Positions 31,100 through 49,300 of a DNA stretch of 64,000 nt are shown in pieces. Positions within the stretch are counted from its first letter, which is position 1, and each line of letters starts with the position of its first letter. A program made the translations under genes and the position numbers. The stretch covers positions 2,790,001 to 2,854,000 of the forward strand of contig NZ_CP049362.1 of assembly GCF_019343455.1 (NCBI RefSeq), given 5' to 3'. The notes beneath the pieces were generated by a model. It did no database searches, was not told the origin of the DNA, and saw only the letters and a list, made by a program, of their open reading frames with translations. This stretch comes from Alcaligenes ammonioxydans. GTDB lineage: Bacteria > Pseudomonadota > Gammaproteobacteria > Burkholderiales > Burkholderiaceae_B.

Positions 31100-31824
31100 A
31101 GCCGCAGCTTGCCCGTCGTCGAGCCCTGGTCCTATTTTCGGGGGGACAGGATTCGGCCACTTGTCTGGCATGGGCTCTGGATCGTTTTGCGTTTGTGGAG
31201 ACCGTGGGCTTTGACTACGGCCAGCGAAACCATGCGGAACTGCAATGTCGCCAGACGTTGCGAGAAAATCTGTGCCGACACTTTCCACATTGGGCAGAGC
31301 GCCTGGGCGAAGATCATGTGCTTGACGCCGGTGTTCTGGGACAGATAGGCGGCAGCGCCATGACTGAGCCTATGCGCATTGCGGTGCAGGACGATGGCCT
31401 GCCCAATACCTTCGTGCCCGGTCGCAACCTGCTGTTCTTTACTTTGGCCGCTGCCTTGGCCTACCGTCGCGGGCTGGATACGCTGGTAGGCGGCATGTCT
31501 GAAACTGACTACTCAGGCTACCCGGACTGCCGGGACAACACCCTTAAAGCTTTGCAAGTCGCCCTGAGTCTGGGCATAGAGCGTCCCCTAACCATAGAGA
31601 CGCCCCTCATGTGGCTGGACAAGGCTGATACTTGGGAGATGGCCGACCAACTGGGCTCAGATGCTCTGGTCAGGCTGATCCAGCAAGACAGCCATACCTG
31701 TTACCAGAATGAGCGGGAAGCGCTGCATGACTGGGGATATGGCTGCGGACGCTGCCCCGCTTGCGAACTGCGCGCCAAAGGATATGCAAACTGGAGCAGG
31801 CGGCGTGCCGATCCCGGTCATTGA
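31096..31824 (+). CDS. queC: 7-cyano-7-deazaguanine synthase QueC
   Basis: A 242-residue ATP-dependent enzyme. It converts 7-carboxy-7-deazaguanine and ammonia into preQ0 in queuosine synthesis. It carries the PP-loop [12 protein letters not shown] near residue 15, the [13 protein letters not shown] segment, and the C-terminal zinc cysteines in CGRCPAC plus an upstream Cys (SHTCYQN). A longer frame from 30847 overlaps yhhQ and is rejected. Its end overlaps the convergent hypothetical gene by 7 bp. Confidence 0.93.
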
Positions 31825-32633
31825 GCATTTCGGCAGGGATGCAGGATTCGATGCAAACGCAATGCGGTGGACAAAGAGTGGCTTTTCAATAGCAGCAGAA
31901 CAGAACACCACATCAGAAAAATCAGGATGGGCGCACTGAAATAACGCTGGAATTTCACCGTTGAGTGTAAGCTGGAAAAATAATCTCCTGACTTGACCGC
32001 CGCACAAACCCACTCCCTTTCATCCTCAAGAAAAGGAACAGTCTGGGCTTGTTTCGGTAGTGAGCAATCGGAAAGATCATAAACCCATTTTTTATCTCCT
32101 GACGCCAGGAAAGAGCGCAAGCCCTTCTCGCCCTGCCATGCCCAAACCTCGCTTTCTTTAAATTTAATAATCGCATCGGGACGGATGACTAAAGTCGCGA
32201 AAATCGCGATCAAAAAAGTGATCAAAACCCAAAAAATCGGCAGCACCACCCGTTGCACAGCCTTGGGTTTCTCTACTCTTTGCTCTTTCCAGTTGACCCA
32301 GACCCCTGCTTTGCCCAGTGTTCTCAGAGCAATGGCGCTGGAGTGCGCCCATTTCACCGCGCGATGTGTGTCTTTCACTGTCTGAATATCATCAACGCGG
32401 TGGAGCCCGAACATGATCTTGAAACGCTCTACATCCAGCGATTTTTCTCGCTCGGCATCCAAATAAGCATCATAAAATTTGTCGCGATGAAAGAAAGACC
32501 ATAGCTTATTGAAAAATATGAAATACGCCCCCCTTAAGAACAGGTAGAGCAAGCCCGCCAACACGCTCAGAAAGATAAATAAACTAAAAGCGGCAGAAAA
32601 ATAAGAAAAAAGACTTGAGATAGTATTCATCAT
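31818..32633 (-). CDS. Membrane hypothetical protein, AT-rich
   Basis: About 271 residues, family not recognised. One or two hydrophobic segments near the N-terminus ([20 protein letters not shown]), one near 135 ([20 protein letters not shown]) and one near the C-terminus ([16 protein letters not shown]) make it an inner-membrane protein. The sequence is visibly AT-richer than its neighbours, suggesting recent acquisition. The first ATG (32633) directly follows the T-tract of the upstream terminator and has no Shine-Dalgarno sequence. A TTG at 32672 would read through that terminator. The start is therefore doubtful. Confidence 0.5.
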
Positions 32634-32662
32634 AAAAAAACCCAACCACCGAAGTGGCTGGG
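32634..32662 (-). terminator. Rho-independent terminator after glyA
   Basis: On the minus strand CCCAGCCAC, a TTCG tetraloop and GTGGTTGGG form a 9-bp stem (one G-U), followed by seven T. It ends the serC-glyA unit. Confidence 0.88.
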
Positions 32663-32684
32663 TCCTTATCAACAGAATGACACA

Positions 32685-33974
32685 TTACAGCTGGGCTGGT
32701 TCCGTTTGTACCTGATACACCGGGTACGTACGACACAAGGTAACGATCTTCTCACGAATATCGTGCTTGACGGCCTCCAGCGTGCCCGCCTCATAAGCAT
32801 CGAGCACATCGCACAAGTAATGCGCCAGTTGCTCGCAATCGGCCACGGTAAAGCCCCGTGTCGTCACGGCAGGCGTTCCGATACGGATACCCGAGGTCAC
32901 CATGGGCGAGCGCGGATCGTTGGGCACTGAGTTTTTGTTGACGGTGATGTAAGCATCCGCCAGGGCATCACTGGCTTCTTGCCCGGTATAAGGCTTGGTC
33001 GACAGGTTAATCAGCATCATGTGGTTATCCGTACCCCCAGACACGATGGTATGGCCACGCTGAATCAGTATCGCTGCCATCGCTCGGGCATTACGCACCA
33101 CATTTTGCTGATAGGTACGGAACTCGGGTTGCAAGGCTTCCTTGAAGGCAACGGCTTTGGCTGCAATAAGATGCATCAAGGGCCCCCCTTGCACGCCGGG
33201 GAACACCGCTGAATTCAAACGTTTGTAGAAATCGTCGCTTTGCCCTTTAGCCATGATCACGCCACCACGTGGGCCGCGCAGGGTTTTGTGCGTGGTGCTG
33301 GTAACCACATGTGCGTATGGCAAGGGGCTGGGGTACTCACCCGCCGCCACCAGGCCGGCCACATGAGCCATATCGACCCAGAACCAGGCACCCACCTTGT
33401 CAGCGATCTGGCGCATACGCGCCCAATCCTTCACGCGTGAATAGGCAGAGAAACCGCCGATCAACATCTTGGGCTTGGTCTCGATAGCAATCCGCTCCAT
33501 TTCGTCGTAATCGATCAGCCCGGTTTGGGTATCGACGCCGTAAGGAACAATGTTGTAAAGACGCCCCGAAATATTGATGGGATTACCGTGCGTCAGGTGC
33601 CCGCCCTGCGCCAGATTCATCCCCATTACCGTATCGCCAGGTTTGAGCAGGGCCAGAAACACGGCGGTATTGGCTTGTGCTCCGGCATGAGGCTGCACGT
33701 TGGCATAATCGCAATCGAATAGGGCCTTCAGGCGCTCGATGGCCAAACGCTCGGCCACGTCCACAAACTCGCAACCGGCGTAATAGCGCTTGTCCGGATA
33801 ACCCTCAGCGTACTTGTTGGTGAAAACGGAGTTCTGAACCTGCATGACCAAGGGGCTGGCATAGTTCTCCGAGGCAATCAGTTCTACATGATCTTCCTGA
33901 CGGCTTTGTTCACCAGCCATGGCCTGGGCCAGTTCCTTGTCGAATTCAGCCAGAGTGAGTGTGTTGTCGTACAT
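32685..33974 (-). CDS. glyA: Serine hydroxymethyltransferase GlyA
   Basis: PLP enzyme of 429 residues. It interconverts serine plus tetrahydrofolate with glycine plus methylene-THF. The Schiff-base lysine is present, K230 in [13 protein letters not shown], with ELIASENY (catalytic Glu, near 31), HAGAQAN and [12 protein letters not shown] (PLP-ring His and Asp) and the carboxylate Arg in [14 protein letters not shown]. It lies 72 bp after the serC-like gene in the same direction, at the edge of the dnf cluster, so it may serve that cluster rather than be the housekeeping copy. In the published dnfT1RT2ABCD naming it could be an accessory gene; I cannot tell. Confidence 0.9.
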
Positions 33975-34046
33975 CGCTTTTCCTTAAAAAATCTTAGGTC
34001 AAATCGCAGCCACCTGCCTGGCCGCTCTGAGAGGCGGGCATCGCCC

Positions 34047-35129
34047 TTAACCGTGCGTGCGCGCGAATTCGCGCATGAACAGCGCCAGCTCCTGTACCGC
34101 ATCCAGGGTGACGGCGTTATAAATGCTGGCGCGCAAGCCCCCAGTCGACTGATGGCCCTTCAAACCATGAAATCCGTTTTCCTGCGCTTCCCGAACAAAT
34201 AGATCCTCCAAATTTCTTTCGGAAATATGAAAAGGAACATTATTGATAGATCGATAATCAGGCAAAACATGATTGATATAGAAACCATTACTGCCATCAA
34301 TCACGTTATAAAGATGGCGTGACTTTTTCTTATTGATTTCATGCAGCACTTCTATTCCACCCGTACGTTCAATCCACTCCATCATCAAGCCCATCACATA
34401 CCAGGAAAACGTGGAAGGAGTATTTAACAGGGACTGCTTTTTTGCCTGAATGGAAAAATCCAACGCCTGTGGCGTTGCAGCCAAAGGCTTGTCTAAAATA
34501 GCAGGATTGAGCAATACGAGCGTGACACCGGCAATACCCATATTTTTCTGGGCTGAGGCATAAACCAAATCATGTGCGGCAATGTCAATCGGCTTGGACA
34601 TCAGGCTGGAGCAGGCATCACACACTAATGGAATAGACGAAATGGGTGGTTTTGAAAATTGCAAGCCCTGTGCAGTTTCATTCTCCGTGTAATGCAAATA
34701 AGCCGCATCCAGATTAATATGAGATTCATTAATTTCAGGAACACGATCAAATCCAGTTTCATGAGAACTGGCAATGGTTCGCACAATCCCATATTGCCTG
34801 GCGGCATTAGCCGCTTGCTCCGACCACAAGCCCGTGTGTATATAGTCCGCTGTGTTTGTTTTATGAAACAGGTTCATCGGAATTTGAGAAAACTGCAGAT
34901 ACGACCCCCCTTGCAGGAGCAACACGTGATAGTCCGATGGAACTGCCAGAACGCGACGCACCGCGGCGTCAGTCGCGTGGGCAAAATCCATAAAGGGCTG
35001 GGAGCGATGGCTGATTTCCATCACGGATACCCCCGTGCCGGCAAAATCGAGCAGTTCATCGCGCACTTGCAAGAGAACATCGATCGGCAAGGCGCTGGGC
35101 CCTGCGCTGAAATTAAAGGGTCGGGACAT
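34047..35129 (-). CDS. serC: SerC-like phosphoserine aminotransferase of the dnf cluster (probable dnfT1 by position)
   Basis: A class V aminotransferase of 360 residues close to SerC: RPFNFSAGPSALP at the start, QKNMGIAG with the PLP lysine K195, NTPSTFSWYVMGL and GGLRASIYNA. Known SerC enzymes convert 3-phosphohydroxypyruvate and glutamate to phosphoserine. One difference stands out: the usual His-Arg just before the GGxRASIYN motif is His-Gln (KGHQSTGG). The ATG at 35129 matches the family start. A TTG seven codons upstream is less likely. It diverges from dnfR over a palindromic DnfR-type site, so it should be co-regulated with the dnf genes. Confidence 0.82.
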   Translation of the reverse strand: MSRPFNFSAGPSALPIDVLLQVRDELLDFAGTGVSVMEISHRSQPFMDFAHATDAAVRRVLAVPSDYHVLLLQGGSYLQFSQIPMNLFHKTNTADYIHTGLWSEQAANAARQYGIVRTIASSHETGFDRVPEINESHINLDAAYLHYTENETAQGLQFSKPPISSIPLVCDACSSLMSKPIDIAAHDLVYASAQKNMGIAGVTLVLLNPAILDKPLAATPQALDFSIQAKKQSLLNTPSTFSWYVMGLMMEWIERTGGIEVLHEINKKKSRHLYNVIDGSNGFYINHVLPDYRSINNVPFHISERNLEDLFVREAQENGFHGLKGHQSTGGLRASIYNAVTLDAVQELALFMREFARTHG

Positions 35130-35209
35130 ACTTGCTGAGATCCTGTACAAACCTGAACGCCGGAACAGGCCCCCCCTATTTCGGCAACGACAATCAAGTC
35201 TACGAGCAC

Positions 35210-35233
35210 AATGGTCTGACTAGTCAGACCATT
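35210..35233. promoter_or_regulatory. Palindromic DnfR-type operator between serC and dnfR
   Basis: A perfect 24-bp palindrome: AATGGTCTGA, CTAG, TCAGACCATT. Each arm contains TGGTCTG, seven of the eight bases of the reported DnfR site. It lies 22 bp upstream of the dnfR ATG and about 80 bp from serC, so it can serve both genes and autoregulation. The dnfR Shine-Dalgarno GGAG is at 35244-35247. Confidence 0.7.
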
Positions 35234-35255
35234 AATCTTCTCTGGAGCAGACCGC

Positions 35256-36761
35256 ATGACGCGTTCGTTTGAACTGGACACCTTGAAAATGCGTCTTAAC
35301 GATGACGAACTTCAATCCCTGGATCTTCACCAGCGTATTCAACGTGCCCTACGGGCGCTGATTCTGGATGGCGCTCTGGGTCCCGGAGTCAAGCTGCCTG
35401 CCACGCGCTCACTGGCCAAATCATTGAGCATGGCGCGCGATACCGTCGAGAACGCCTATGTCCAACTCCACCGCGACGGCTTTATCGTGCGACGTGAAGG
35501 TTCGGGCAGTTATGTCTCTGAATCCGTGGGAACCGAGCTGCGAGGCAGCGCCTACCGGCGCATCAAGGCCCAGGATCTGAAACGCAGCGTCATGGAACCG
35601 GGTACCGGCTTGAGCCGCCGGGGCCGCGCCGTATTTGAAAGTGGCGGTATTGCCGATCAGCAAACCATCAAGGCCTTTGCCACCGGCTTGCCTGAAACCC
35701 GCAACTTTCCGACCGATGTCTGGGAGCGCCTGCAGCGTCAGGCCATGAAGGACTTTCGCGCCAACATCCTGCTACATGGTGATCCCCAGGGCACCGAGTC
35801 CTTGCGCAAAGCGATTGCCGTATACCTGAATCTGGAACGAGGCGCCAAGGTATCCGCGGATCAGATTCTGATTTTGAGCAGTACGCGCCAAGCTCTGTTC
35901 CTGTGTGCGCAACTGCTGGTCGATGCGGGCAAGCCCATTCTGGTTGAGAATCCAGGTTACTTCGGCGCGCGCAAGGCTTTTGAAGCGGCCGAAGCCCGTG
36001 TCGTACCTATTGGGGTGGACGAACAGGGCCTGCGCACCGAGCTTTTGCATGAAGACCGCAGCGGTGCAAACTGCATTTATGTCACCCCCTCCCATCAGTA
36101 CCCAACAGGGGCGACCCTTTCACTGGAACGTCGCCTGGAACTGATACGCTGGGCGGCCGAAAATGGCCGCTGGATTCTGGAAGACGACTACGACAGCGAG
36201 TTTCATTATGACGGCCTGCCCACCGCCTGCGTGCAGGGTCTGGACAAGTATCAGCGTACGATTTACCTGGGCACGTTCAGCAAAACGCTCTATCCGGGGC
36301 TGCGCATGGGGTATATGGCTCTGCCGCCGGAGCTGGTCAAACCCTTTACACAAGCCCGCAGCATCATGGATGGGCACACTCCCCAGATACTGCAGCTGAC
36401 CCTGGCGCGTTTCATGGAAGACGGCCACTACAACTCGCACATCCGGGCCATGCGCAAGCTGTACACGGGGCGTCGGGAGATCATGCTGGAGGCCATTGAA
36501 CAACATCTTCAAGGTATTGTGCGCGCCGCCAGACCTGAGGGCGGCTTGCAGATACCCTGTTTCCTTGAGCCAGGCTGGTCGGAAGAACACACCTTGCGCC
36601 GCGCCCTAAGCGCTGGCGTACAGCTACCCGGTTTGAGCCGGCTGTATATTGGTGAGGAAAAACAACAGGGGTGGCTACTGGGCTATGCATCCTTGACGGC
36701 CTACGAGATTGAATCCGCCATGTTGCGTCTGGCCAACGCCTTGCGTCAGGGCAAGGGTTGA
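35256..36761 (+). CDS. dnfR: DnfR, MocR-family PLP-type activator of the Dirammox genes
   Basis: A 501-residue MocR/GntR-type regulator. A GntR winged helix spans about 20-90 (IQRALRALILDGALGPGVKL, TRSLAKSLSMARDTVENAYV), then a linker, then a fold type I aminotransferase-like domain (about 130-500) that keeps the PLP lysine K343 (LGTFSKTLYPGLRMGY) and the DDYDSEFHYDG segment. In Alcaligenes, DnfR is reported to activate dnfABC through TGGTCTGT sites, and such sites are present upstream of dnfA and dnfR. The retained lysine suggests that PLP or an amino-acid aldimine is the effector. It converges with dnfT2, 12 bp between the stops. Confidence 0.9.
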   Translation: MTRSFELDTLKMRLNDDELQSLDLHQRIQRALRALILDGALGPGVKLPATRSLAKSLSMARDTVENAYVQLHRDGFIVRREGSGSYVSESVGTELRGSAYRRIKAQDLKRSVMEPGTGLSRRGRAVFESGGIADQQTIKAFATGLPETRNFPTDVWERLQRQAMKDFRANILLHGDPQGTESLRKAIAVYLNLERGAKVSADQILILSSTRQALFLCAQLLVDAGKPILVENPGYFGARKAFEAAEARVVPIGVDEQGLRTELLHEDRSGANCIYVTPSHQYPTGATLSLERRLELIRWAAENGRWILEDDYDSEFHYDGLPTACVQGLDKYQRTIYLGTFSKTLYPGLRMGYMALPPELVKPFTQARSIMDGHTPQILQLTLARFMEDGHYNSHIRAMRKLYTGRREIMLEAIEQHLQGIVRAARPEGGLQIPCFLEPGWSEEHTLRRALSAGVQLPGLSRLYIGEEKQQGWLLGYASLTAYEIESAMLRLANALRQGKG

Positions 36762-36773
36762 GCCAGGCTGCAG

Positions 36774-38069
36774 TCAATATGCAAGGGGATATCGCCGGTT
36801 CAGATCGGCTACCCCTTCTAAAATGGCATTTTCGGTGCGCGCGCTGCGAGCACCGCTGCGCACGCCGCCCAGCAACGCCAGAATCATGTCGCCAATTTCC
36901 TTGAAGTCATCCTCCCCCAGCCCCCGGGTCGTACAGGCGCCGCTCCCCACCCGTATGCCGGAATAGGCCGCATGAGCCTGCTCATACGGCACACGATGTT
37001 TGCTCAAGCTGATACCCAACTGCGCCAAGGCCCGTTCTACCAAGGGCCCGGACAACTCCCAGGGGCGCAGATCCACCACGCCAAAGTGGCAGTCCGTGCC
37101 TCCCGACACCACAGTCAGGCCACCTTCAGCCAATCGGCGGCACAAACTGCGCGCATTGATGATGACCGCCTGTGCATAGGCTTTATAGGCAGGGCTCATT
37201 GCCTCTCCCAGTGCCACTGCCTTGGCCGCCATAATGTTCAGCAAAGGCCCACCCTGCAGGCCCGGATACACAGCCTGACTCAGACGCTCCGCCAACTTGG
37301 GCTCATTACATAAAATGATGCCACCTCGGGGACCGCGTAAAGTGCCATGCGTGGAAAAAGTGGTCACATGGGCATGCGGTACGGGCGACGCCATCAAGCC
37401 CGCCGCCACCAGTCCGGCGCTATGAGCCAGATCCACCATCAGATATGCATTGACCTCGTTGGCAATCGTTCTGAACTCGGCAAAATCGGGCGTCCGTGAA
37501 TAGGAGGAGCCACCCGCGATGATCAGGCGAGGACGCTCCTTGTGAGCCAAAGCACGCACCTCGTCCATGTCCACCCACTGGGTCTGGCGATCCACACCAT
37601 AAGAACAGGTCTGAAACCAGCGCCCCGAAACATTCACATGCGAGCCGTGACTGATATGGCCGCCGGCACTTTGATCCAGCGCCAAAATAGTATCACCCGG
37701 CGAGAGCAGGGCCAGATAGACCGCCAGATTGGCCTGGCTGCCCGAGTGGGCCTGGACATTGGCAAACGCCGCCCCGAACACCGACTTGGCCCGCTCGATA
37801 GCCAGCTCTTCGGTTTGGTCGGCCTGTTCGCACCCGCCATAAATCCGTTGCCCTGGGTATCCCTGCGCCTGCTTGTTGCTCAGCAAGGACCCCTGTACGT
37901 CCAGAACGGATCGGCTCAGGTAATTCTCCGAAGCAATCAGCTCAATGGTGTGCTGCTGTCGGCGTCGCTCGGCCTCGATGATGTCCCAAAGATTGCGATC
38001 GCTTTGCTGTAGAAATTGCGAACCCACCACAGGCAGGTGGGAGGTGTCGCCACCGGCAAGACTCTTCAT
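36774..38069 (-). CDS. dnfT2: DnfT2, serine hydroxymethyltransferase paralogue lacking the PLP lysine
   Basis: A 431-residue SHMT-like protein. The fold motifs remain: ELIASENY near 43, AHSGSQAN near 107, [12 protein letters not shown] near 213, and RGPRGG. The Schiff-base lysine of the [11 protein letters not shown] motif is replaced by glycine: [13 protein letters not shown]242. The codon is GGC, read directly from the minus strand. Without this lysine no internal aldimine can form, so ordinary SHMT turnover is unlikely. The C-terminal half is also divergent ([13 protein letters not shown] for [13 protein letters not shown]). Its position between dnfR and dnfA matches dnfT2. It diverges from dnfA and probably shares its control region. 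Confidence 0.88.
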
Positions 38070-38364
38070 GGGAGTTCCTGTTTAGATATAAGCCCCTTGA
38101 CGGTCGCGACCGTTTTTCAGTCACGAGACAAAAGGGCAAGCCCGGGTATGTCGTTTTCCAGGGCGAAAGATAAACATCCTATTCTGTTTATCGCCCAATC
38201 AAACAGTCCATTAAAAATTAATTCACCAGAACACTTTTAATCATTATTGTCCGGATAAACATTCAAGGCATAAAGAATTAAAAATCCCTTGAAACACAGC
38301 AAGAAAGCCAATCCCGATTATTTCAGTCAAGAATTAAAACAGAAATCAAATTTTTATTCTTAAG

Positions 38365-38395
38365 TGGTCTGTTAAATAGCCTGAAAATGGTCTGT
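38365..38395 (+). promoter_or_regulatory. Two direct DnfR binding sites upstream of dnfA
   Basis: Exact TGGTCTGT at 38365-38372 and again at 38388-38395, same strand, 23 bp apart start to start. This octamer is the reported DnfR motif in Alcaligenes faecalis. Direct repeats are usual for MocR activators. Confidence 0.85.
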
Positions 38396-38422
38396 CATTT
38401 ATTGTCATAGGATCATTAGAAT
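38394..38422 (+). promoter_or_regulatory. Candidate dnfA promoter
   Basis: Weak -35 TGTCAT (38394-38399), a 17-bp spacer and -10 TAGAAT (38417-38422). The -35 abuts the second DnfR site, as expected for activator-dependent initiation. The transcript would carry a leader of about 300 nt. Confidence 0.45.
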
Positions 38423-38581
38423 GCAGCCAACGAATACTCAATGCCCATACTTCTAAACGCTCAAACAGATTATCACTCTTTTCAATCTGCGCATTAAAAC
38501 CATCCCCAGTTTTCCCATAACCACAGGAAACGCCATTGCTTTAACGGCAGTTCAACCGCGCTGATCTTGCAAGGTTCCTAA

Positions 38582-38613
38582 AGACCCGGTAACGGGCTTT
38601 TTTTGAAACCGGG
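38582..38613 (+). promoter_or_regulatory. Possible transcription attenuator in the dnfA leader
   Basis: AG(a)CCCG, GTAA, CGGGCT (38582-38598) forms a hairpin followed by seven T (38598-38604), a terminator shape about 130 bp before dnfA. Just downstream, ACCGGG (38608-38613) can instead pair with CCCGGT (38585-38590), which would disrupt the hairpin. Confidence 0.45.
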
Positions 38614-38733
38614 CTGAAAGAGCAGCAAATCCTTTTAAGCCTGCGAATTTCCATTCGGAAATAGAGACAGGTGGAATAACAAAACGATCTGTTCATTTCG
38701 AACGGATCGCAACCAACAGCAAGGAAGTTTGAA

Positions 38734-39687
38734 ATGACTATCAAAAGCTACGAAACCGATGATGCTGTACGTAATATGCTGCAAAAGCTGTCTGTACTTT
38801 GGAAAAACCGGGCGGCGGTCAATCAGGAGCTGCCGGACTACAACAATTTGGCATTCGATCCGAACAAGGCCGATTTCAGCGAATGTCTGCTGCCTTTCCG
38901 TGAGCACCAGGCCTGGCTGGAAGCACCTGAGGAATTGAAATCGCAGTGTCTGTCTTACGCTTGGGGGATCTACAACCTCAAGACCATTTATGTGGAGTGC
39001 AACGTCGTCACTCCGTCCTGCGAAGACATCATCAAGACGCCGCCACCGAGCGCCAACCGCAATCTGCTGCAGGATGTGATGTCCCAGGCCTTGCTGGATG
39101 AAGCCCTGCACACCCGCATGTCCATCATGGCATGCAACTACATCTATTCCATGCGCGGTCTGCAACCTTTGGATTTCACCAACTTCAACCTGGTGCAATG
39201 GCGCAACGACATCCTGAGCCAGTGCAGTTCTGAATCCGAGCGTCGCCTGACCCGCTTTGCCATTGCCTGCGCGTCCGAAACCCTGATTACCGACTACCTC
39301 AAGACCATGGCTGAGGACAAGAGCATCCAGACTATCTGCCATGAAGTGACCCGCACGCACGCCATGGACGAGTGGAGCCACTCCAGCGTGTTCAGCTTTG
39401 TCGCCTCGGACATCATTCACGGTCTGAGCCAGAAAGAGCGTGAGCATATGCGTGCCGTTATCCTGCGCACCGTGGAAATGTTCGCCAACAACGAAATGGG
39501 CGCCTGGGAAAAAGTGTTCTCCATGGTGAACTTCCCCAATGCACGCGACATTTTGCACGACACCGGCGATTCCAACGAAATTGGCGTGTACACCGGTTCG
39601 GTTGAAAGCCTGATCGAGCGCATTGGCTTGAACAGCAAATCGGGGCAGGCACAGGCCCAAGACGAGCAACAGGAGGCGCTGCAATGA
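38734..39687 (+). CDS. dnfA: DnfA, AurF-like diiron oxygenase of Dirammox
   Basis: A 317-residue soluble helical protein of the AurF-type diiron N-oxygenase family. All seven expected ligands are visible with AurF spacing: E88, E123, H126 (LDEALH), E182 (CASETL), H209, E213 and H216 (THAMDEWSH). In Alcaligenes, DnfA is the enzyme that oxidises hydroxylamine to N2 with O2 and electrons from NADH via a flavin reductase. AAGGAAG precedes the ATG. The stop overlaps the dnfB ATG. It is unrelated to copper ammonia monooxygenase and to multihaem hydroxylamine oxidoreductase. Confidence 0.93.
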   Translation: MTIKSYETDDAVRNMLQKLSVLWKNRAAVNQELPDYNNLAFDPNKADFSECLLPFREHQAWLEAPEELKSQCLSYAWGIYNLKTIYVECNVVTPSCEDIIKTPPPSANRNLLQDVMSQALLDEALHTRMSIMACNYIYSMRGLQPLDFTNFNLVQWRNDILSQCSSESERRLTRFAIACASETLITDYLKTMAEDKSIQTICHEVTRTHAMDEWSHSSVFSFVASDIIHGLSQKEREHMRAVILRTVEMFANNEMGAWEKVFSMVNFPNARDILHDTGDSNEIGVYTGSVESLIERIGLNSKSGQAQAQDEQQEALQ

Positions 39688-40736
39688 CAGCCATGATTCA
39701 GGCGCGCTGCGAGACCGTTCGCCCCGAGGCCGGAAACGTCAAAGTGTTCACCTTGCGCGTGCAAAGTAAGCATTTCGATTTTCTGAGCGCCTTGCGGGCC
39801 GGCAAGCATGTCGCCCTGAGCTACCCCGATACCGGTGGCACGATTCAACAGCGTATGTATTCGATCACTCGCGTGGCCGATCCAGACCTGATTGAAATTG
39901 CTGTCAAAGGTTCGGGCCGCAATAGCGTCTCCGATCATTTGCACGCCACGTTGCGCGAGGGCATGAGCGTGCCCCTGCAGTATGTGGCAGGCGAGATTTC
40001 GGTAGATTCTATTGTCGGTTATGAGCGTATCGCCATGATCGCTGGCGGCATTGGCATTACCCTGCCCATTGCCTTGCTGCGTGAACTGGCGGCGCGAGCC
40101 CAGGACGGCTTGCCAGTACCACAAGTACATTTGCTGCTCAGTATTGCCCGTATTGCCGACATTCCCTTTTTGCATGAACTATTGCAACTGGATCTGACCA
40201 GCAGCTGGTTCACGCTGACGGTGTTTGTCACGCAGGAAAAAATCCGTGAAAGCGCTCATTTCAAGGTGGGACGCCCCTCCTTTGAAAATATGGAGCAACT
40301 AAAAGATCCGCAGGCCGTCGTCATTTGCGGCAGCCACGGCTTTGCTCAAGCCCTGCGCGAATACACCAAACAGGCACACCCCATCTCGCATATGTTGATC
40401 GAGGCGTTCTCCCCGCCGGCCAGCTCGGCCGCAGAGATCCAGCCTGCAGCTGGCAGCGCCCCCTTGCAGATCAATGTACGCAGTACCGGACAAACACTCT
40501 CGCCCGAACCGGGCAGCAGCCTGCTGGAAATGCTGGAAGCAGCCGATGTACCCATTCGCAGCCAATGTAGGTCGGGCATTTGCGGCGCGTGCCGGGTACA
40601 GATCTCGGAGGGCGAATACCGCTCTGAACCTGACTTTTGCCTGAGCGATCAGGACAAGGCGCAGGGCCATGCTCTGGCATGTTGCACCTTCCCGCTATCG
40701 GGTGCCATGAATGTAGACATCGGCACCACGAGCTGA
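39684..40736 (+). CDS. dnfB: DnfB, flavin/2Fe-2S oxidoreductase partner of DnfA
   Basis: A 350-residue reductase. An FNR-type flavin domain (about 1-110) carries the RMYSITR flavin motif. An NAD(P)H domain (about 112-225) carries AGGIGITLPIALL and ICGSHGF. A C-terminal plant-type 2Fe-2S domain (about 262-350) has C295, C300, C303 and C333. This order is that of phthalate-dioxygenase-type reductases. It should pass electrons from NADH to the diiron centre of DnfA. It is coupled to dnfA by an ATGA overlap. Confidence 0.92.
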   Translation: MTAMIQARCETVRPEAGNVKVFTLRVQSKHFDFLSALRAGKHVALSYPDTGGTIQQRMYSITRVADPDLIEIAVKGSGRNSVSDHLHATLREGMSVPLQYVAGEISVDSIVGYERIAMIAGGIGITLPIALLRELAARAQDGLPVPQVHLLLSIARIADIPFLHELLQLDLTSSWFTLTVFVTQEKIRESAHFKVGRPSFENMEQLKDPQAVVICGSHGFAQALREYTKQAHPISHMLIEAFSPPASSAAEIQPAAGSAPLQINVRSTGQTLSPEPGSSLLEMLEAADVPIRSQCRSGICGACRVQISEGEYRSEPDFCLSDQDKAQGHALACCTFPLSGAMNVDIGTTS

Positions 40737-40768
40737 CATCCTTACCCTCTGGACTGAAAGAAAACCTT

Positions 40769-41491
40769 ATGAAGAAAGTCATCGCACTGCGTCATATTCA
40801 TTTTGAGGACTTGGGCACGCTGGAGCCTGTTCTGATCGAGCAGGGCTACCAAGTTCACTATATTGACCCTTCCGTCGAGTCTGTGCGTCACTTGGGAGCA
40901 CAGGATGCGGACCTGCTGGTGGTATTGGGCGGGCCGATCGGCGCTTACGACGAAAAAATCTACCCCTTCCTGAGCGATGAGCTGGAACTGATCCACAAGT
41001 TCCTGCTGGCTGGCAAGCCCCTGCTGGGCATTTGCCTGGGCGCACAATTGATTGCGCGCGCGCTGGGCGCCAATGTCTACCCGCTAGGTGTCAAGGAAAT
41101 CGGTTTCTCTCCTCTGAAACTGAGCGAGGCAGGCAAGGAGTCGCCTTTGGCCGCCATCAGTGGCATTCCCGTTTTGCACTGGCATGGGGATCAGTTCGAC
41201 ATTCCGGATGGCGCCGTTCATCTGGCCAGTACCGATGTAGGCCAGAACCAGGCCTTTTCCTTCGGCACTCAAGTCCTGGGCCTGCAATTTCACCTGGAAG
41301 CCGACACCAGCAAGCTGGAGCGCTGGCTGGTCGGTCATGCCAATGAGCTAGGACACGCTGACATCGATCCGCAAATGCTGCGCCTGGAGGCCATGGCAGT
41401 ACAGAAACGCCTGCATGCCGCTGCCGCTACGGTTCTCAACAGCTGGCTCAGCCAACTCAAGCAAGCCGACAAAGCCGATTGTGCTGCATGA
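40769..41491 (+). CDS. dnfC: DnfC, class I glutamine amidotransferase-like protein
   Basis: A 240-residue stand-alone class I glutaminase domain. The triad is complete: C89 (GICLGAQL), H175 and E177 (LQFHLEAD). The oxyanion segment LGGPIGAYDE is near residue 53. Known relatives free ammonia from glutamine for a partner enzyme. In Dirammox, dnfC is required together with dnfA and dnfB for ammonia to N2. No synthetase domain is fused. ATG 40769 follows dnfB by 32 bp, and the stop overlaps the dnfD start. Confidence 0.9.
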   Translation: MKKVIALRHIHFEDLGTLEPVLIEQGYQVHYIDPSVESVRHLGAQDADLLVVLGGPIGAYDEKIYPFLSDELELIHKFLLAGKPLLGICLGAQLIARALGANVYPLGVKEIGFSPLKLSEAGKESPLAAISGIPVLHWHGDQFDIPDGAVHLASTDVGQNQAFSFGTQVLGLQFHLEADTSKLERWLVGHANELGHADIDPQMLRLEAMAVQKRLHAAAATVLNSWLSQLKQADKADCAA

Positions 41492-42354
41492 ACAATGCGG
41501 TAACGTTTGTTGATCGGGAACGACATCCCTACCATGTGGATGTCGTTTCCATTCAGTCCCAAGTGGTTTACGGTCGGGTGGGCAACAATGTTGCTGGCCC
41601 GACCTTGCGCCGATACGGCTTTAAGGTGGCGACCGTTCCGACTGTGCTCCTGAGCAATAATCCCCAGTATCCAACCGTCCATGGCGGCGCCGTGCCCGAC
41701 GAGTGGCTGGAAGGATTCTTGAACGACCTGGTGTTACGCGGTGCTCTGGACCAGGTGCGCGCGGTCCTGATCGGCTATCTGGGCAGTGCCCAACAGGCCG
41801 TCATCATTGCGCACTGGCTCCAAACCTTGCTGCGCCAACACCCGGATGTACTCGTCATCGTCGACCCTGTCATGGGCGACCTGGATGTGGGCGTCTATGT
41901 GGACCCGGCACTAATCGACAGCTACCACGACACCTTGCTGCCACTGGCCAATGGTCTGACCCCGAATAACTACGAACTGTCCCTGTTGGCCCAACAGCCC
42001 TGCGATACCGTTCAGGCCAGCTCCAGCGCCGCGCACAAACTGCTTAACGGTCGCACGGAGTGGGTCATTGCCACCAGTGCTGCTCCCCAATCCTGGCAGG
42101 ATGGGCAGATCAAACTGTTAATGGCCCGCAAAGAGCCCCGCGCCGACACCTTGCTGGGTCACCCCCGCGTCGACTGCGCCGCCAAAGGCACCGGCGATCT
42201 GTTTGCCTCGACCTTGCTCGCCCATCTGATCCTGGGCGCAGACCTGCATTCGGCCGTGCATACAGCCAGCGCCAGTGTGCTGCATCAGCTGGAGTTGACC
42301 CGGCAGGCCGGACACCAGGAACTCATTTTGCCAATAGATCCTTTCCGACCCTGA
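41488..42354 (+). CDS. dnfD: DnfD, PdxY-like pyridoxal kinase
   Basis: A 288-residue ribokinase-fold kinase close to PdxY: VVSIQSQVVYGRVGNN (near 20), TVLLSNNPQYPT, IGYLGSAQQ, VDPVMGD and the anion-hole GTGDLFAS with the catalytic Asp. It phosphorylates pyridoxal to PLP. About 15 residues precede the normal family start. The ATG overlaps the dnfC stop, so it is the fourth cistron of the operon. A PLP-making kinase fits a cluster with SerC, two SHMT-type proteins and a PLP-dependent regulator. Confidence 0.88.
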   Translation: MNNAVTFVDRERHPYHVDVVSIQSQVVYGRVGNNVAGPTLRRYGFKVATVPTVLLSNNPQYPTVHGGAVPDEWLEGFLNDLVLRGALDQVRAVLIGYLGSAQQAVIIAHWLQTLLRQHPDVLVIVDPVMGDLDVGVYVDPALIDSYHDTLLPLANGLTPNNYELSLLAQQPCDTVQASSSAAHKLLNGRTEWVIATSAAPQSWQDGQIKLLMARKEPRADTLLGHPRVDCAAKGTGDLFASTLLAHLILGADLHSAVHTASASVLHQLELTRQAGHQELILPIDPFRP

Positions 42355-42439: not shown

Positions 42440-44431
42440 ATGGGGCTGCCTTTTAAAAGCACGCTACATCCACGGGTGTTCTGGGGATCGACCTTTATCG
42501 TCCTGATCTTCTTGCTGATCGGAATTATTTTCCCTAAAGACGCCGCACTTATTTTTGAACAGCTACAAAACTGGGTCATTAAAAGTTTCGGCTGGTTTTA
42601 TATCCTGGCTGTGGCCCTGTTTTTCTTTGCCGTGGTCTACCTGGCCTTGAGCCGGTATGGCAATCTGAAATTGGGGCCGGATGATTCGGAACCCGACTAC
42701 CCGTACCTGACCTGGATGGCCATGCTGTTTGCAGCAGGCATGGGCATTGGCCTGATGTTCTTTGCCGTGGCCGAGCCGCTGCAACACTTCTCGGCCCCAC
42801 CCTCGGGCCTGGCCAGCACCGTCGAGGCGGCACATCAGGCGCAGATCATCACCTTTTTTCACTGGGGCGTTCATGCATGGGCCGTTTACGCAGTCGTGGG
42901 TTTATCCCTGGCCTATTTCTGCTTTCGCTATAACCTGCCCCTGACCATTCGCTCGGGACTCTATCCCTTGTTTGGCAAACGCATTGAGGGCTGGATTGGC
43001 GACAGCGTCGATATCTTTGCCGTCTGCGGCACCTTGTTCGGTATCGCAACGTCCATGGGCCTTGGGGTGCTGCAAATCAACGCTGGCCTGGAACATTTAT
43101 TTGGCTGGCCTCAGGAAACCTGGCTGCAAATTGTTCTGATTGTGGTGGTTACCGCCTTGGCCACCCTGTCCGTTGTCAGTGGACTGGATGTAGGTATACG
43201 CCGGCTCTCTGAATTGAATCTGCTGGTTGCCGTTGCCCTGATGCTGTTTGTGCTCTTTGTGGGCCCGACGGCCTTTTTGATGAATGCTTTTGTACAGAAT
43301 ATCGGCGGTTATCTCGATAACTTTTTTGCGCGCTCATTCAGTACACAAGCATTCCGCGGGCAAAGCTGGATGAAGGCCTGGACCCTGTTTTACTGGGCCT
43401 GGTGGATTGCGTGGTCACCCTTTGTAGGCATGTTTATCGCCCGTATTTCCCGTGGTCGTACAGTCCGCGAATTCGTGCTGGGCGTACTGCTGGTGCCCAC
43501 GGTGTTTACCTTCTTCTGGATGACCGTCTTTGGTAATACCGCCATCTTTCTGGACATGGGTGTGGCCGCTGGCCAGCTGGCCCAGGATGCTGCTGCAAAT
43601 GCCTCAGTGGCCCTGTTCGAGTTTCTGGAATACCTGCCCTGGTCCAATGTCACCTCGACCTTGGCAATTATTCTGGTAGCTATTTTCTTTGTGACCTCAG
43701 CCGACTCGGGCTCCCTGGTTATCGACACTCTGGCCGCCGGTGGGGTGGAAGATGCCCCCGTCTGGCAACGCATTTACTGGTGCGCCCTGGAAGGCACCGC
43801 CGCTTCCCTGCTCTTGCTGGCTGGTGGTCTGACCGCTTTGCAAACCGTGACTCTGGTCAGTGCCCTGCCTTTTGCCATCATCATGTTCCTGTTGATTTTG
43901 GGGCTGTTCAAAGGCATGAAGGCGGATATGTCCCGGCTACGTCGTCAAGGCCCACTGTCCGGCCCGGCGCCTGGCTCGGAGGTGTCCTGGCGACGGCGCC
44001 TTTCCACCATCCTGCACACCCCTAATCAGCGCGACGCCCGTCGTTTTCTGGCTGACACTGTCATTCCCGCCTTGCAGGCTGTGGCAGAGGAACTGGGCAA
44101 GCGAAACCTGAATGTCAACCTGGAAACCGGCGAAGCAGACACGGCCCAGTTGACGATTCAGGCCGATAACCAGCGCAACTTCGTCTATGGGGTGGAACTG
44201 CGTGCGCGCCGCGTCGCCAGTTTCACCGCGGCGGCCGCCCGTAACGAGCAGACCCGCCCTCAGGAATGGCAGGTGCGCACGGTGTTTGCCGATGGCAGTC
44301 GGGGTTACGACCTGATGGGGCTGTCTTCCAGCCAGGTCATCAACGATATCCTGAACCACTTCGAGCGCTACCAGGCCCTGGTTACCTCGGAGGCAACGGC
44401 GCTTTACGCGCAGTCGCCCGACCCGAGCTAA
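42440..44431 (+). CDS. BCCT-family transporter (choline/betaine type, BetT-like)
   Basis: A 663-residue carrier with about 12 membrane helices and a cytoplasmic C-terminal extension from about 500 on, as in BetT-type members. The substrate-binding helix is present as [28 protein letters not shown] (shown here as [19 protein letters not shown]). It takes up choline or related quaternary amines, or serves osmotic adaptation. It starts 85 bp after dnfD with CGGAG before the ATG. I see no strong terminator between them, so read-through from dnf is possible. It converges with soxR, overlapping 4 bp. Confidence 0.88.
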
Positions 44432-45005: not shown

Positions 45006-45239
45006 ATGTTTTCCCTTTTCTGGACTCTGTTTGCCAGACCGTTAGTCTGCATGCGGCCCGGCATGTCTACGCTAAGCGCGCTCATTGCCATCGTGTTCTC
45101 CCCGCCCTGCAAACCGCTTGTGCGCGCCACCTCTTTCAAACCCGAGGACTGGGCACAACGGGACCAACGATCCGGACGGACGCATCCACCCAGACAGCCG
45201 CTGTGGCGGGAGCACCAGGCAGGAGGGCAAAGCGCATGA
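45006..45239 (+). CDS. Possible small leader protein of the RND operon
   Basis: A 77-codon frame with AGGA seven bases before the ATG. The N-terminal 35 residues are hydrophobic and Cys-containing (MFSLFWTLFARPLVCMRPG), the rest basic and polar. Its stop overlaps the start of the adaptor gene (ATGA), which would couple translation. It does not resemble MexG. It may be a real small membrane protein or only a leader frame. Confidence 0.35.
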   Translation: MFSLFWTLFARPLVCMRPGMSTLSALIAIVFSPPCKPLVRATSFKPEDWAQRDQRSGRTHPPRQPLWREHQAGGQSA

Positions 45240-46309
45240 GTTCACGTCGCATCGGAATCATGATTGTCGTTCTAACCAGCCTGGGGGTATTGAGCTGGCG
45301 GCTGCTCCCAGCCACGGAACAAACCCAGTCTACCGGGGGCTACCCGCCTGCCGTCGTCGAACTGTCCAGCGTGCAATCCCAGATCCCCCCTCGTCTTTTA
45401 CATGCAGTCGGTACGCTGGAAGCCTGGCAACAAGTGTTGCTCAGTGCACAGACCAGCGGACGCATCCGCAAGATTGAATTCGCCTCAGGACAAGCGGTTC
45501 AGACAGGTCAGCCCTTGCTCCTGCTCGATGATGAGCTCGAACAGGCCGGTGTGCATCGTGAGCAGGCAAAGGTCAAACAGACCGCGATCCAGCTCATGCG
45601 AGTGCGCAAGCTGAAAGAGCAGCAGGCGGCCACCCAGGAACAACTGGACCAGGCGCAGGCAGATCATGCGATGGCACAGGCACAGTTGCAGTACCAACAA
45701 GCCGCTTTGGGTTTGAAGCAGGTCAATGCTCCGTTTTCGGGCCAGATAGGCATTACCCACTTGCATCAGGGCCATTATCTGCAACCTGGCCAGCCTATCG
45801 CCAGCCTGGTCGACGATAGCCGCTTGCGAATCAACCTGACGGTTCCGGAACACAGCCTGCCTGACTTGAGCGTCGGCCAACAACTTCAGGTGCAGCTTGA
45901 TGCCTGGCCGGGCGAACACTTCCAGGCGCAAATCAGCGCCATCGACCCGCTGATCGGCGACTCGCGCACGGTGCGCTTGCAAGCACTGCTGCCCAATCCA
46001 GAGCGGCGCCTCAAGGCAGGGATGTATGCCCGAGTACAACTGAAGCGCCCCGCGCCGTCTTCCGTGCTGACCGTGCCTGAAACAGCGCTGACCTATACGG
46101 CCTACGGTCAGACCGTTTTTGTCGCCTCCCCGGCCAGCCAAGGCTTGTGGCAAGTCAAACGTGTGGCAGTGCAAACTGGCGAGCAATGGGATGAGCGCGT
46201 CGAGATCACGGATGGTCTGAAAGAAGGTGATCGGGTGGTGAGCGCCGGACAGATCAAGATCCAGGACGGCTCCACGGTACAAACTGCCCAGCGCAAGGAG
46301 CCTGTATGA
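45236..46309 (+). CDS. RND efflux periplasmic adaptor subunit
   Basis: A 357-residue membrane-fusion protein: N-terminal membrane anchor or signal (residues 5-25), lipoyl domain halves (LSAQTSGRIRKIEFASGQAV and VNAPFSGQIGITHLHQGHYL), a coiled-coil hairpin between them (about 100-150), then a beta-barrel and membrane-proximal domain (VPETALTYTAYGQTVFV). AGGAGGG precedes the ATG. A longer in-frame start at 45203 is less likely. Its stop overlaps the RND gene. Control by SoxR is indicated by the promoter about 290 bp upstream. Confidence 0.9.
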   Translation: MSSRRIGIMIVVLTSLGVLSWRLLPATEQTQSTGGYPPAVVELSSVQSQIPPRLLHAVGTLEAWQQVLLSAQTSGRIRKIEFASGQAVQTGQPLLLLDDELEQAGVHREQAKVKQTAIQLMRVRKLKEQQAATQEQLDQAQADHAMAQAQLQYQQAALGLKQVNAPFSGQIGITHLHQGHYLQPGQPIASLVDDSRLRINLTVPEHSLPDLSVGQQLQVQLDAWPGEHFQAQISAIDPLIGDSRTVRLQALLPNPERRLKAGMYARVQLKRPAPSSVLTVPETALTYTAYGQTVFVASPASQGLWQVKRVAVQTGEQWDERVEITDGLKEGDRVVSAGQIKIQDGSTVQTAQRKEPV

Positions 46310-49300
46310 ATACCGCTTCCCGTCCCGGTTTTACCGATTTGTTCGTGCGGCGCCCGGTCCTGGCCCTGGTGGTCAGCGCTTTGCTGTTGATGGTGGGTCT
46401 GTTCTCCCTGAACAAGCTGCCGATCCGGCAGTATCCCCTGCTGGAGAACTCCACCATCACGATTACCACCGAATACCCTGGCGCCTCTGCGCAGCTGATG
46501 CAAGGCTTTATCACGCAACCAATTGCCCAGGCCCTGGCCTCGGTCGAAGGGGTCGATTATCTGTCCTCCAGCTCCGTGCAAAGCCGCAGTGTCGTGAGCT
46601 TGCGCATGGCACTGAATCGCGATTCCACCCAAGCTCTCACAGAAGTCATGAGTAAAGTCAGCCAGGTACGTTATCGCTTGCCCGAAGGGGCGTATGACCC
46701 GGTTATCGAGCGCTCCTCCGGCGACTCCACCGCCGTCGCATATGTGGGCTTTTCCACAACCTCACTCTCCATCCCGGAACTGAACGATTATCTGTCTCGC
46801 GTGGTGGAACCCATGTTCTCCACCATTGACGGGGTGGCCAAAATTCAGACCTTTGGTGGTCAGAAACTGGCCATGCGCCTGTGGCTGAACTCGGACCGCA
46901 TGGCTGGCTATGGCCTGACGGCGGCCGATATTGCCCAGGCCGTGCGTGCCAACAACTATCAGGCCGCCCCCGGCATGGTCAAAGGTCAACATGTGCTCAG
47001 CACCATCCAGCTCAACTCCGACCTGACCAGCGTGGCCGAATTTCAGGACCTGATCGTGCGTGAGGACGGCACCTCCTTGGTGCGACTGCGCGATGTGGGC
47101 ACGGTGGAACTGGGCGCGGCGACACGCGAAACCAGCGCCCTGATGGATGGCCTGCCGGCGGTTCACCTGGGTTTGTTCCCGACGCCCGGCGGCAACCCCC
47201 TGCGCATTGTGGACGGCATTCGAGAGCGTCTGCCTGCCATTGAAGCCACCTTGCCGCCGGGCGTGGAAGTGGCCCTGGCGTTTGAAACAGCACGCTTTAT
47301 TCAGGCCTCTATTGATGAGGTACTCAAAACCCTGACGGAAGCCATGCTGATCGTGGTGTTGGTGATTTACCTGTGCCTGGGCTCCTTGCGAAGCGTGCTG
47401 ATTCCGCTGGCCACCATTCCTCTGTCCATGTTGGGGGCCGCTGCTCTGATGCTGGCGTTTGGCTTTAGCCTCAACCTGCTGACCTTGCTGGCCATGGTAC
47501 TGGCTATTGGCCTTGTGGTGGACGATGCCATTGTGGTGGTGGAAAACGTACACCGACATATTGCGGCGGGACGCTCGCCCGTAGTGGCCGCCCTGCTGGG
47601 CGCGCGTGAAGTTGCGGGCCCGGTCATTGCCATGACCCTGACGCTGGCCGCCGTCTATGCCCCGATTGGCCTGATGGGCGGATTGACTGGCGCACTTTTC
47701 AAAGAGTTCGCCCTGACCCTGGCGGGCGCAGTGCTGGTGTCCGGGGTAGTGGCCTTGACCCTGTCCCCGGTCATGAGCTCTTTACTGCTACCCGCGCAAC
47801 AAGAGGAAGGCCGCATGGCCCATCTGGCCGCACGATTTTTCAACGCCCTATCGGTCCGGTATGGCCGTTTATTAGCGTATTCCTTACGTCACCGCTGGCT
47901 TAGCGTGACCGTCGCCCTGGTGATCTTCATCAGCCTGCCGGTGCTCTATCAAATGACGCACAGCGAACTGGCGCCGGTTGAGGATCAGGCCAGCGTGCTC
48001 ACCGCTGTCAAAGCCCCCCAGAACGCCAACCTGGCTTATGCCCAGCGCGATGGTAAACAGCTGGATGACATTTATCGTGACATCGCCGAAACCGAGAGCA
48101 CGTGGCTGATTATGGGAACAGACGGCCCAGCCGCCAGCTTTGGCGGAATCAACCTGAAAGACTGGGGCGCACGCGAACGCAATGCCAACGAGGTTCAGGA
48201 AGAACTGCAAGCTCGCGTCAGCCAGATTGCAGGCAGCAGTATCTTCGCGTTCCAGCTCGCCCCCCTGCCCGGTTCCAGCGGCGGTCTGCCGGTGCAGCTG
48301 GTATTGCGCAGTCCCGGCGACTACCGCACGGTGTACGACACGATGGAATGGGTGAAGCAGCAAGCCCGTGACAGTGGCCTGTTCGTCGTGGTCGATAGCG
48401 ACCTGGACTATAACAAGCCGGTTGCCCGTCTCGAAATCGATCGTAGCAAGGCGGCCAGCATGGGCATCAGCCTGCGTGACATTGCCGACTCGCTGGCCGT
48501 GCTGGTCGGCGAAAACTACCTAAATCGCTTCTCGCTGGATGGCCGCTCGTACGACGTCATTCCGCAAAGCCAGCGTGAACTGCGCCTGACGGCTCAAGCC
48601 CTGACACGCCAGTTTGTACGCAGTGCCAATGGCGAGCTGGTGCCCTTGTCGACCATGGTTCAAATCCAAAGCGAAGTGGAACCGAACAGCCTGCGCCAGT
48701 TCAACCAGCAAAACTCGGCCACACTGCAGGCCATTCCAGCCCCTGGCGTCACCCTGGGGCAGGCAGTCGCGTACCTGGACGACCTTGCACGCCAACTACC
48801 CGCCGGCTTTACGCATGACTGGCAATCGGAATCACGCCAATTCACCCAGGAAAGCCAGTCGTTGGCCTGGGCCTTTCTGGCCGCGCTACTTGTGATTTAT
48901 CTGGTGCTGGCCGCGCAGTACGAAAGCCTGTTGGACCCCATCCTCATTCTGGTGACAGTGCCCTTGTCCCTGTGCGGGGCCCTGCTGCCTTTGGCCCTGG
49001 GATTGGGCACGCTCAATATCTATACGCAGATCGGTCTGCTCACACTAGTGGGGCTGATCAGCAAGCACGGCATTCTGATGGTGGAGTTTGCCAATGAGCT
49101 GCAATCCCGAAAAGGGCTGACCAAACCCGATGCCATCTTGCAGGCGGCCCGCATTCGCTTGCGCCCTGTGCTGATGACGACCGCAGCCATGGTCTTTGGC
49201 TTGATACCCCTGCTCTTTGCCTCCGGGGCGGGGGCGAACAGCCGCTTTAGTCTGGGTGTGGTACTGGTCTCAGGCATGTTGATCGGCACCGTATTTACCC

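Follow-up and report, generated by a model that had tools for sequence, protein, structure and literature searches.

Spare PLP enzymes and a lysine-less SHMT-family protein in the dnf locus of Alcaligenes ammonioxydans suggest self-protection against hydroxylamine

Why does a gene cluster for the oxidation of ammonia carry, around its oxygenase, a group of genes for proteins that share little more than pyridoxal 5'-phosphate (PLP)? The question is raised by a locus of Alcaligenes ammonioxydans at positions 32,685 to 42,354 of a 64,000-nucleotide stretch of contig NZ_CP049362.1 (the window; contig positions 2,790,001 to 2,854,000), in a genome consisting of one contig of 3,774,827 bases and 100% complete. 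The locus is the published dnfT1RT2ABCD (Dirammox) cluster of Alcaligenes plus an outer serine hydroxymethyltransferase (SHMT) gene, and its core is not new: genes T1, R, T2, A, B, C, and D stand in the published order (PMC9136411), so that an earlier note on this DNA had rightly called the dnf locus complete. The cluster was reported in 36 well-assembled Alcaligenes genomes, with T1 of the SerC type, R of the MocR type, T2 an SHMT, and D a kinase (PMC9136411). The upstream genes were counted as dnfT1T2RT3 in PMC11160463, which, by gene number, would take in the outer SHMT. What is new here concerns the loss of a lysine in DnfT2 and the PLP-related genes around dnfABC, hereafter satellites.

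From the gene content, the copy numbers, the lysine loss, and the gene linkage observed, we infer that the locus produces hydroxylamine and at the same time protects the cell's PLP enzymes, a reading to which we give a probability of roughly 60%. Hydroxylamine forms oximes with PLP and is a PLP poison. It would attack the PLP-lysine aldimine of B6 enzymes, and the producer would hold in reserve, controlled by the same regulator, extra copies of PLP enzymes it cannot do without (SHMT and SerC; elsewhere ArgD or 5-aminolevulinate synthase), with PLP kept supplied and buffered by PdxK and by YggS, the latter unlinked in this genome. A poison with a single chemistry would explain a gene set with one cofactor and no common pathway, and the tie of the satellites to the gene of the amidotransferase to which release of hydroxylamine is ascribed. 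It would also explain the shared regulator in the cluster together with the published co-induction of a yggS with the dnf genes, and the presence of a module in organisms that may be exposed to hydroxylamine without producing it.

The production side rests on published work. Glutamine, made by GlnA, is described as an intermediate, and DnfA/DnfB with DnfC as releasing free hydroxylamine; DnfR controls and activates the cluster, and a dnfR point mutant gave no hydroxylamine. The earlier note had dnfABC convert ammonia via hydroxylamine to N2. Indeed, Escherichia coli with dnfABC alone yields both hydroxylamine and N2 (PMC9136411), but N2 formation by DnfA itself is disputed: it is held to be mainly abiotic, with hydroxylamine as the main product and perhaps a competitive agent (PMC11160463).

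The copy numbers fit spare enzymes. The cluster holds two of the three SHMT genes of the genome and one of its two SerC genes, so that second copies of target-type enzymes adjoin the producer genes, a feature of self-resistance islands. SHMT, SerC, YggS, and PdxK together amount to 8 genes genome-wide, and about 0.04 would be expected per 20 kb by chance. The outer SHMT (32685..33974, minus strand) matches an SHMT profile and keeps its lysine (TTHKTL); the profile E-values of the two SHMT-type genes, 2.9e-166 and 1.3e-140, are far from chance. The protection reading leads one to expect spare and not novel enzymes, and the PLP lysine is in fact kept at the pattern position in 13/13 SerC and 21/21 ArgD-type proteins, DnfT2 being the exception. 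The 18 YggS stretches listed all read VSKT; the YggS and MocR lysine patterns are too narrow for counts. No dnf-type ArgD was found in the A. ammonioxydans genome (best match 37%).

A single search of genome contigs with a DnfA alignment of 30 rows yielded 55 loci with dnfA relatives, which we compared. Pfam or NCBIfam served to type chosen neighbour genes, and tblastn with seeds was run on all 55 loci; satellite seeds were taken from the same loci in which satellites were counted. The satellites vary by lineage (SHMT, SerC, ArgD, 5-aminolevulinate synthase, YggS, PdxK), and only PLP is common to all. The sets are SHMT, SerC, and PdxK in Alcaligenes; SHMT, ArgD, YggS, and SerC in Pseudomonas (L011, L012, L015-L022); SHMT, ArgD, and YggS in Delftia (L009, L010); YggS, PdxK, and ArgD in Pokkaliibacter, Andreprevotia, Jeongeupia, and two metagenome-assembled genomes; and SHMT, YggS, PdxK, and 5-aminolevulinate synthase in Xanthobacter, with YggS the only satellite found in Herbaspirillum and Verminephrobacter. 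Four ArgD, two YggS, and one 5-aminolevulinate synthase protein among the typed neighbours passed curated cut-offs. One Xanthobacter locus (L029) has two DnfC-like genes as well as the 5-aminolevulinate synthase.

Satellites occur in 30/42 loci with dnfC versus 0/13 without it (Fisher p 3.6e-6, descriptive only, the loci being related), where 7 of the 13 (L032, L034, L035, L038, L045, L048, and L056) come without the full 10-kb flank on one or both sides and genes may lie past the ends. MocR is distributed likewise, in 31/42 and 0/13 loci, respectively. In 10 of the 13 loci without dnfC, a Pfam scan of 63/78 neighbours within 5 kb listed 25 of 68 families, none of them of PLP enzymes; ATP-grasp, arylamine N-acetyltransferase, (serine) hydrolase, and major facilitator superfamily genes were found instead. 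These neighbours suggest a different pathway, and the loci apparently belong to another type of N-oxidation. DnfA/DnfB relatives without dnfC (DnfA 64-67%) lie in Enterobacterales and Pseudomonas syringae-type genomes (L036, L038, L039, L042, L043, L032, L034, and L035).

The second SHMT-type protein, DnfT2 (36774..38069, minus strand), departs from this pattern in a way that the earlier note did not see. It matches PF00464 over its full length (1.3e-140, profile positions 1-399 of 399), but reads STHGTL where the SHMT motif is TTHK(T/S)L: a GGC glycine codon (37344..37346, minus strand) stands in place of the PLP Schiff-base lysine of the compared SHMTs. A protein search with DnfT2 gave 7923 matches, of which the best 120 were used, and 80 rows formed the T2 set (matches P0121-P0182 and P0189 plus 17 locus or window rows). 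In the T2 set, the lysine column holds K 50, A 12, G 10, T 6, Q 1, and M 1, whereas K is present in 57/57 remaining matches and in 9/9 outer SHMTs; counts at SHMT sites include the fragment rows P0122, P0126, P0168, P0182, and P0189. Among 10 genomes searched in the genus, DnfA was found in nine (this one and 8/9 others, by a DnfA protein query), and the same nine carry T2 with THGTL. In the ten Pseudomonas loci this site is occupied by Ala (8) or Thr (2), and in two metagenome relatives by Gln and Met. Thus, Alcaligenes and the ten Pseudomonas loci are without the lysine, which is retained by some producers and by the genomes with no dnfA found; among the rows that keep it are Delftia, Achromobacter, Microvirgula, Bordetella bronchiseptica, Xenorhabdus, and P. 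oryzicola.

Other sites are eroded as well. Position E57 (E. coli numbering), presumably the catalytic glutamate of SHMT, is Q in 8/8 Alcaligenes T2 rows that cover the site (of 10), and the further Alcaligenes changes are Y55Q, Y64I, and L121Q. In the Pseudomonas Ala and Thr forms, S35 is changed to A or T and G260 to A; Y55H is seen in the Thr forms and H203E in two rows; row P0169 has Y55H and H203P, and row P0177 has E57Q. Among 144 columns invariant in 67 non-T2 SHMTs (the five fragment rows excluded), Alcaligenes T2 has lost 22 and the 47 lysine-keeping T2 rows between 0 and 12. DnfT2 therefore resembles SHMT in its full-length profile match and in H126, D200, H228, and R235, which are conserved in every row with a letter there, but differs from it in the missing lysine and in the changes at E57, Y55, and Y64, and judging from these residues it is unlikely to be a normal SHMT. 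No report of this lysine loss was found in the literature covered, to which the 2021 (Environ Microbiol), 2022 (Appl Environ Microbiol), and 2023 papers on dnf did not belong.

The loss did not happen only once. On a careful tree of 58 rows, from which the five fragment rows, 23 near relatives (lysine-keeping and lysine-less), and the columns around ten eroded sites were removed, we counted four changes between lysine and no lysine; a quick tree, excluding P0122, P0126, P0168, and P0182 and retaining P0189, gave three. A single clade of all 27 lysine-less rows was rejected by the approximately unbiased test (p 7.9e-11; 0.016 without P0177). The ratio of nonsynonymous to synonymous substitution rates (dN/dS) of DnfT2 is 0.035 in Alcaligenes (4 sequences) and 0.087 in the Ala-type Pseudomonas (8), near that of DnfA (0.021 and 0.092, respectively), and therefore selection keeps the protein. 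Outer-SHMT (GlyA_out) rows for Pseudomonas and Delftia were dropped from this analysis, the best match in cut loci possibly being T2. A decaying pseudogene was rejected: in all 9 genomes of the genus that carry it, DnfT2 is full length and free of stops, with the low dN/dS just given.

DnfT2 would thus have begun as a spare SHMT and later become non-catalytic in at least two producer lineages (Alcaligenes and most of the sampled Pseudomonas) and in two relatives. As it keeps much of the PLP pocket, its likeliest roles would be binding of PLP or PLP-oxime, or pairing with the active outer SHMT. More specifically, a metabolic enzyme may have turned independently, several times, into a binder of PLP-oxime or free PLP, a sponge or sensor, within a DnfR-controlled hydroxylamine-defence regulon found also in non-producers; loss of the lysine would let PLP-oxime be captured as a mimic of the external aldimine. 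We hold this more specific proposal only tentatively, at well under even odds, and a role as partner of the outer SHMT is as simple.

A related module also occurs where no dnfA was detected. In a family-wide survey of 268 genomes (T2-like protein threshold 1e-145), 24 had a T2-like protein, namely nine Alcaligenes and 15 genomes of a second genus, probably Achromobacter. All 15 proteins of the latter keep the lysine. In short loci, a DnfR-like MocR and BenE lie beside T2 in 10/15 of these genomes, and neither does in 5/15. Reading ten of the 15 over 15-20 kb gave eight modules with DnfR (77-80%), T2, and BenE, and two loci with T2 alone; dnfA was present in none of these ten. The eight modules include SerC in six, YggS in three, and a DnfC-like gene in two. 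DnfC-like amidotransferases (49-51%) near YggS lie at L154:18377-19045 and L158:12205-12882, in genomes where no dnfA was found, the one in L158 supported by Pfam.

These results bear on the proposal of the earlier note, also made in the discussion of PMC11160463, that the satellites act in making or recycling an amino-acid carrier, the compound that DnfA would then oxidise. It agrees with the reports that dnf aminotransferase and hydroxymethyltransferase genes go up with dnfABC (PMC11160463) and with the argument that the direct substrate of DnfA is an unknown compound derived from glutamine (PMC11440038). Nevertheless, dnfABC suffices in E. coli, the satellite sets differ by genus and share no pathway, the module is present where no dnfA was found, and DnfT2 has no catalytic lysine. 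We therefore dropped this proposal as the leading reading and consider it unlikely.

The regulatory regions also deserve attention. A perfect 22-base palindrome, ATGGTCTGACTAGTCAGACCAT, lies in the dnfT1-dnfR gap (35211..35232) and may serve as a DnfR operator; allowing up to 3 mismatches, the 20-base core has no second occurrence in the genome. Two TGGTCTG half-sites lie on the plus strand of the dnfT2-dnfA gap (38365-38371 and 38388-38394). Such half-sites occur in both divergent gaps in 3/3 Alcaligenes loci, in the T2 gap of 10/10 Pseudomonas and 3/3 Delftia loci, and in the MocR gap of 9/10 and 2/2, respectively, and in only 1/8 modules without dnfA. TGGTCTGWC is found 6 times in the window versus 0.88 expected; the seven-base word also arises by chance.

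As the earlier note also suggested in outline, T2 and the other PLP proteins could set the level of a PLP ligand sensed by DnfR and so tune the switch. The position of T2 between dnfR and dnfA, the half-sites in both divergent gaps of three genera, and the cohesion of DnfR, T2, and BenE without dnfA all agree with it; the copies of ArgD, SerC, and 5-aminolevulinate synthase are left unexplained, and we regard it as improbable. Metabolic compensation is equally doubtful. Under it, carbonyls (pyruvate, glyoxylate, one-carbon units) would be lost to hydroxylamine, and the satellites would replenish serine, glycine, and one-carbon supply instead of protecting PLP. Although SHMT and SerC feed these pools and pyruvic-oxime dioxygenase genes are strongly co-induced (PMC8629993), ArgD, 5-aminolevulinate synthase, PdxK, and YggS do not fit it and DnfT2 is hardly a normal SHMT.

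Expression data are consistent with the protection reading. In Alcaligenes faecalis, a yggS goes up about ten-fold with the dnf genes (transcripts per million 2028 v 207; PMC8629993 Table 1), and it is probably, by gene order near suf, the counterpart of a second, dnf-type yggS unlinked in the A. ammonioxydans genome (67% to the Pseudomonas dnf-linked yggS). The unlinked gene (L105:7673-9861) is divergent from a MocR gene with 49% identity to the MocR adjoining dnfA in L013 and L024. The hydroxylamine producer HO-1 did not inhibit Alcaligenes strains (PMC9355588). In dnfA, dnfB, and dnfC mutants, the dnf-cluster proteins except DnfR went down (PMC12575085), which fits induction by the product; polar effects would give the same pattern.

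Several points weigh against protection. Twelve of the 42 dnfC loci have no seed satellite, and in eight of these a Pfam scan of 59/61 neighbours within 5 kb gave no further PLP-enzyme family among the 25 of 40 families listed (four class I/II aminotransferase and four GntR matches, as MocR would give, plus one Pyridox_ox_2). The positive loci L053 and L057 count only a partial edge SHMT, the MocR match of L057 being 24%, and the loci lack independence, 10 Pseudomonas being close relatives and the seeds being drawn from the same loci. Delftia and, apparently, P. oryzicola have dnfA yet keep the T2 lysine. The DnfA profile had no match in the 15 probable Achromobacter genomes, in a search without internal positive control. 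BenE is not accounted for. The dnf-less congener G002 has a 62% yggS, so that strict co-occurrence of this gene with dnfA fails, and a block of MocR (49% to DnfR), BenE, and outer-type SHMT (75%) at L101:7886-11980; another yggS match in G002 is interrupted by two in-frame stops. Only gene order links the induced A. faecalis yggS to the copy studied here, the neighbour induced along with it, a "cytoplasmic protein", was not identified next to that copy, and a DnfR site before the unlinked yggS was rejected, as no exact TGGTCTG half-site lies upstream. Finally, no resistance assay was found in the literature searched, and PMC11160463 reads the satellites as biosynthetic.

As for the remaining genes, the oxygenase, reductase, glutaminase, and pyridoxal kinase described in the earlier note are present at 38734-42354, as are its MocR, SerC-type, and two SHMT-type genes at 32685-38069. 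On the minus strand, dnfT1 (34047..35129) encodes the SerC-type phosphoserine transaminase; its start at 35129 gives MSRPFNF, and the listed open reading frame extends to 35150. It is divergent from dnfR (35256..36761, plus strand; GntR and class I/II aminotransferase domains), as dnfT2 is from dnfA. The plus-strand genes dnfA (38734..39687; AurF-type diiron oxygenase, PF11583, 1.1e-50), dnfB (39684..40736; FAD/NAD reductase with a 2Fe-2S domain), dnfC (40769..41491; class-I glutamine amidotransferase), and dnfD (41488..42354; pyridoxal kinase) follow, dnfB and dnfC identified by profile match and dnfD the sole match in the genome above the TIGR00687 cut-off; ATGA overlaps join dnfA/dnfB and dnfC/dnfD. 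DnfA E97, E123, H126, E182, H209, E213, and H216, which we take to be the diiron ligands, are invariant in the 30-row alignment. At 42440-44431 and 45203-49422, downstream of dnfD, lie genes for a BCCT transporter of the BetT type and for a pair of RND efflux proteins (HlyD-like and AcrB-like), and a DUF6216 protein (31818-32672) adjoins the outer SHMT, matched among three named Alcaligenes loci in L006 only (32%).

If protection is the right reading, the unexplained half of the Dirammox cluster gains a role, that of guarding B6 enzymes from the cell's own hydroxylamine. This would fit the published proposal of hydroxylamine as a competitive weapon and hint at which genera may tolerate it, with YggS, ArgD, SerC, SHMT, and PdxK beside dnfABC as a marker set for likely hydroxylamine releasers. 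An SHMT that lost its lysine repeatedly would offer PLP enzymology a natural experiment.

Among known systems, DnfT2 recalls the SPTLC1-type subunits, in which a PLP-fold protein without the lysine is kept beside an active paralogue, although for DnfT2 the pairing with the outer SHMT is only a possibility. The locus also resembles antibiotic clusters with self-resistance by target duplication, where extra copies of the poison's target enzymes lie beside the producing genes; here, however, the targets would be many enzymes with one cofactor, and resistance is predicted. With the Dirammox cluster of Alcaligenes, the window locus shares gene content and order (DnfA is 97-98% identical to three named Alcaligenes loci), and its core is no different. 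In trichostatin biosynthesis, TsnB7/TsnB9 perform, as in dnf, an AurF-type N-hydroxylation of a glutamine amide, and the hydroxamate is then hydrolysed by an amidotransferase-like protein; the trichostatin system, however, hands the hydroxylamine to another carrier, whereas dnf sets it free (PMC11160463 and work cited there).

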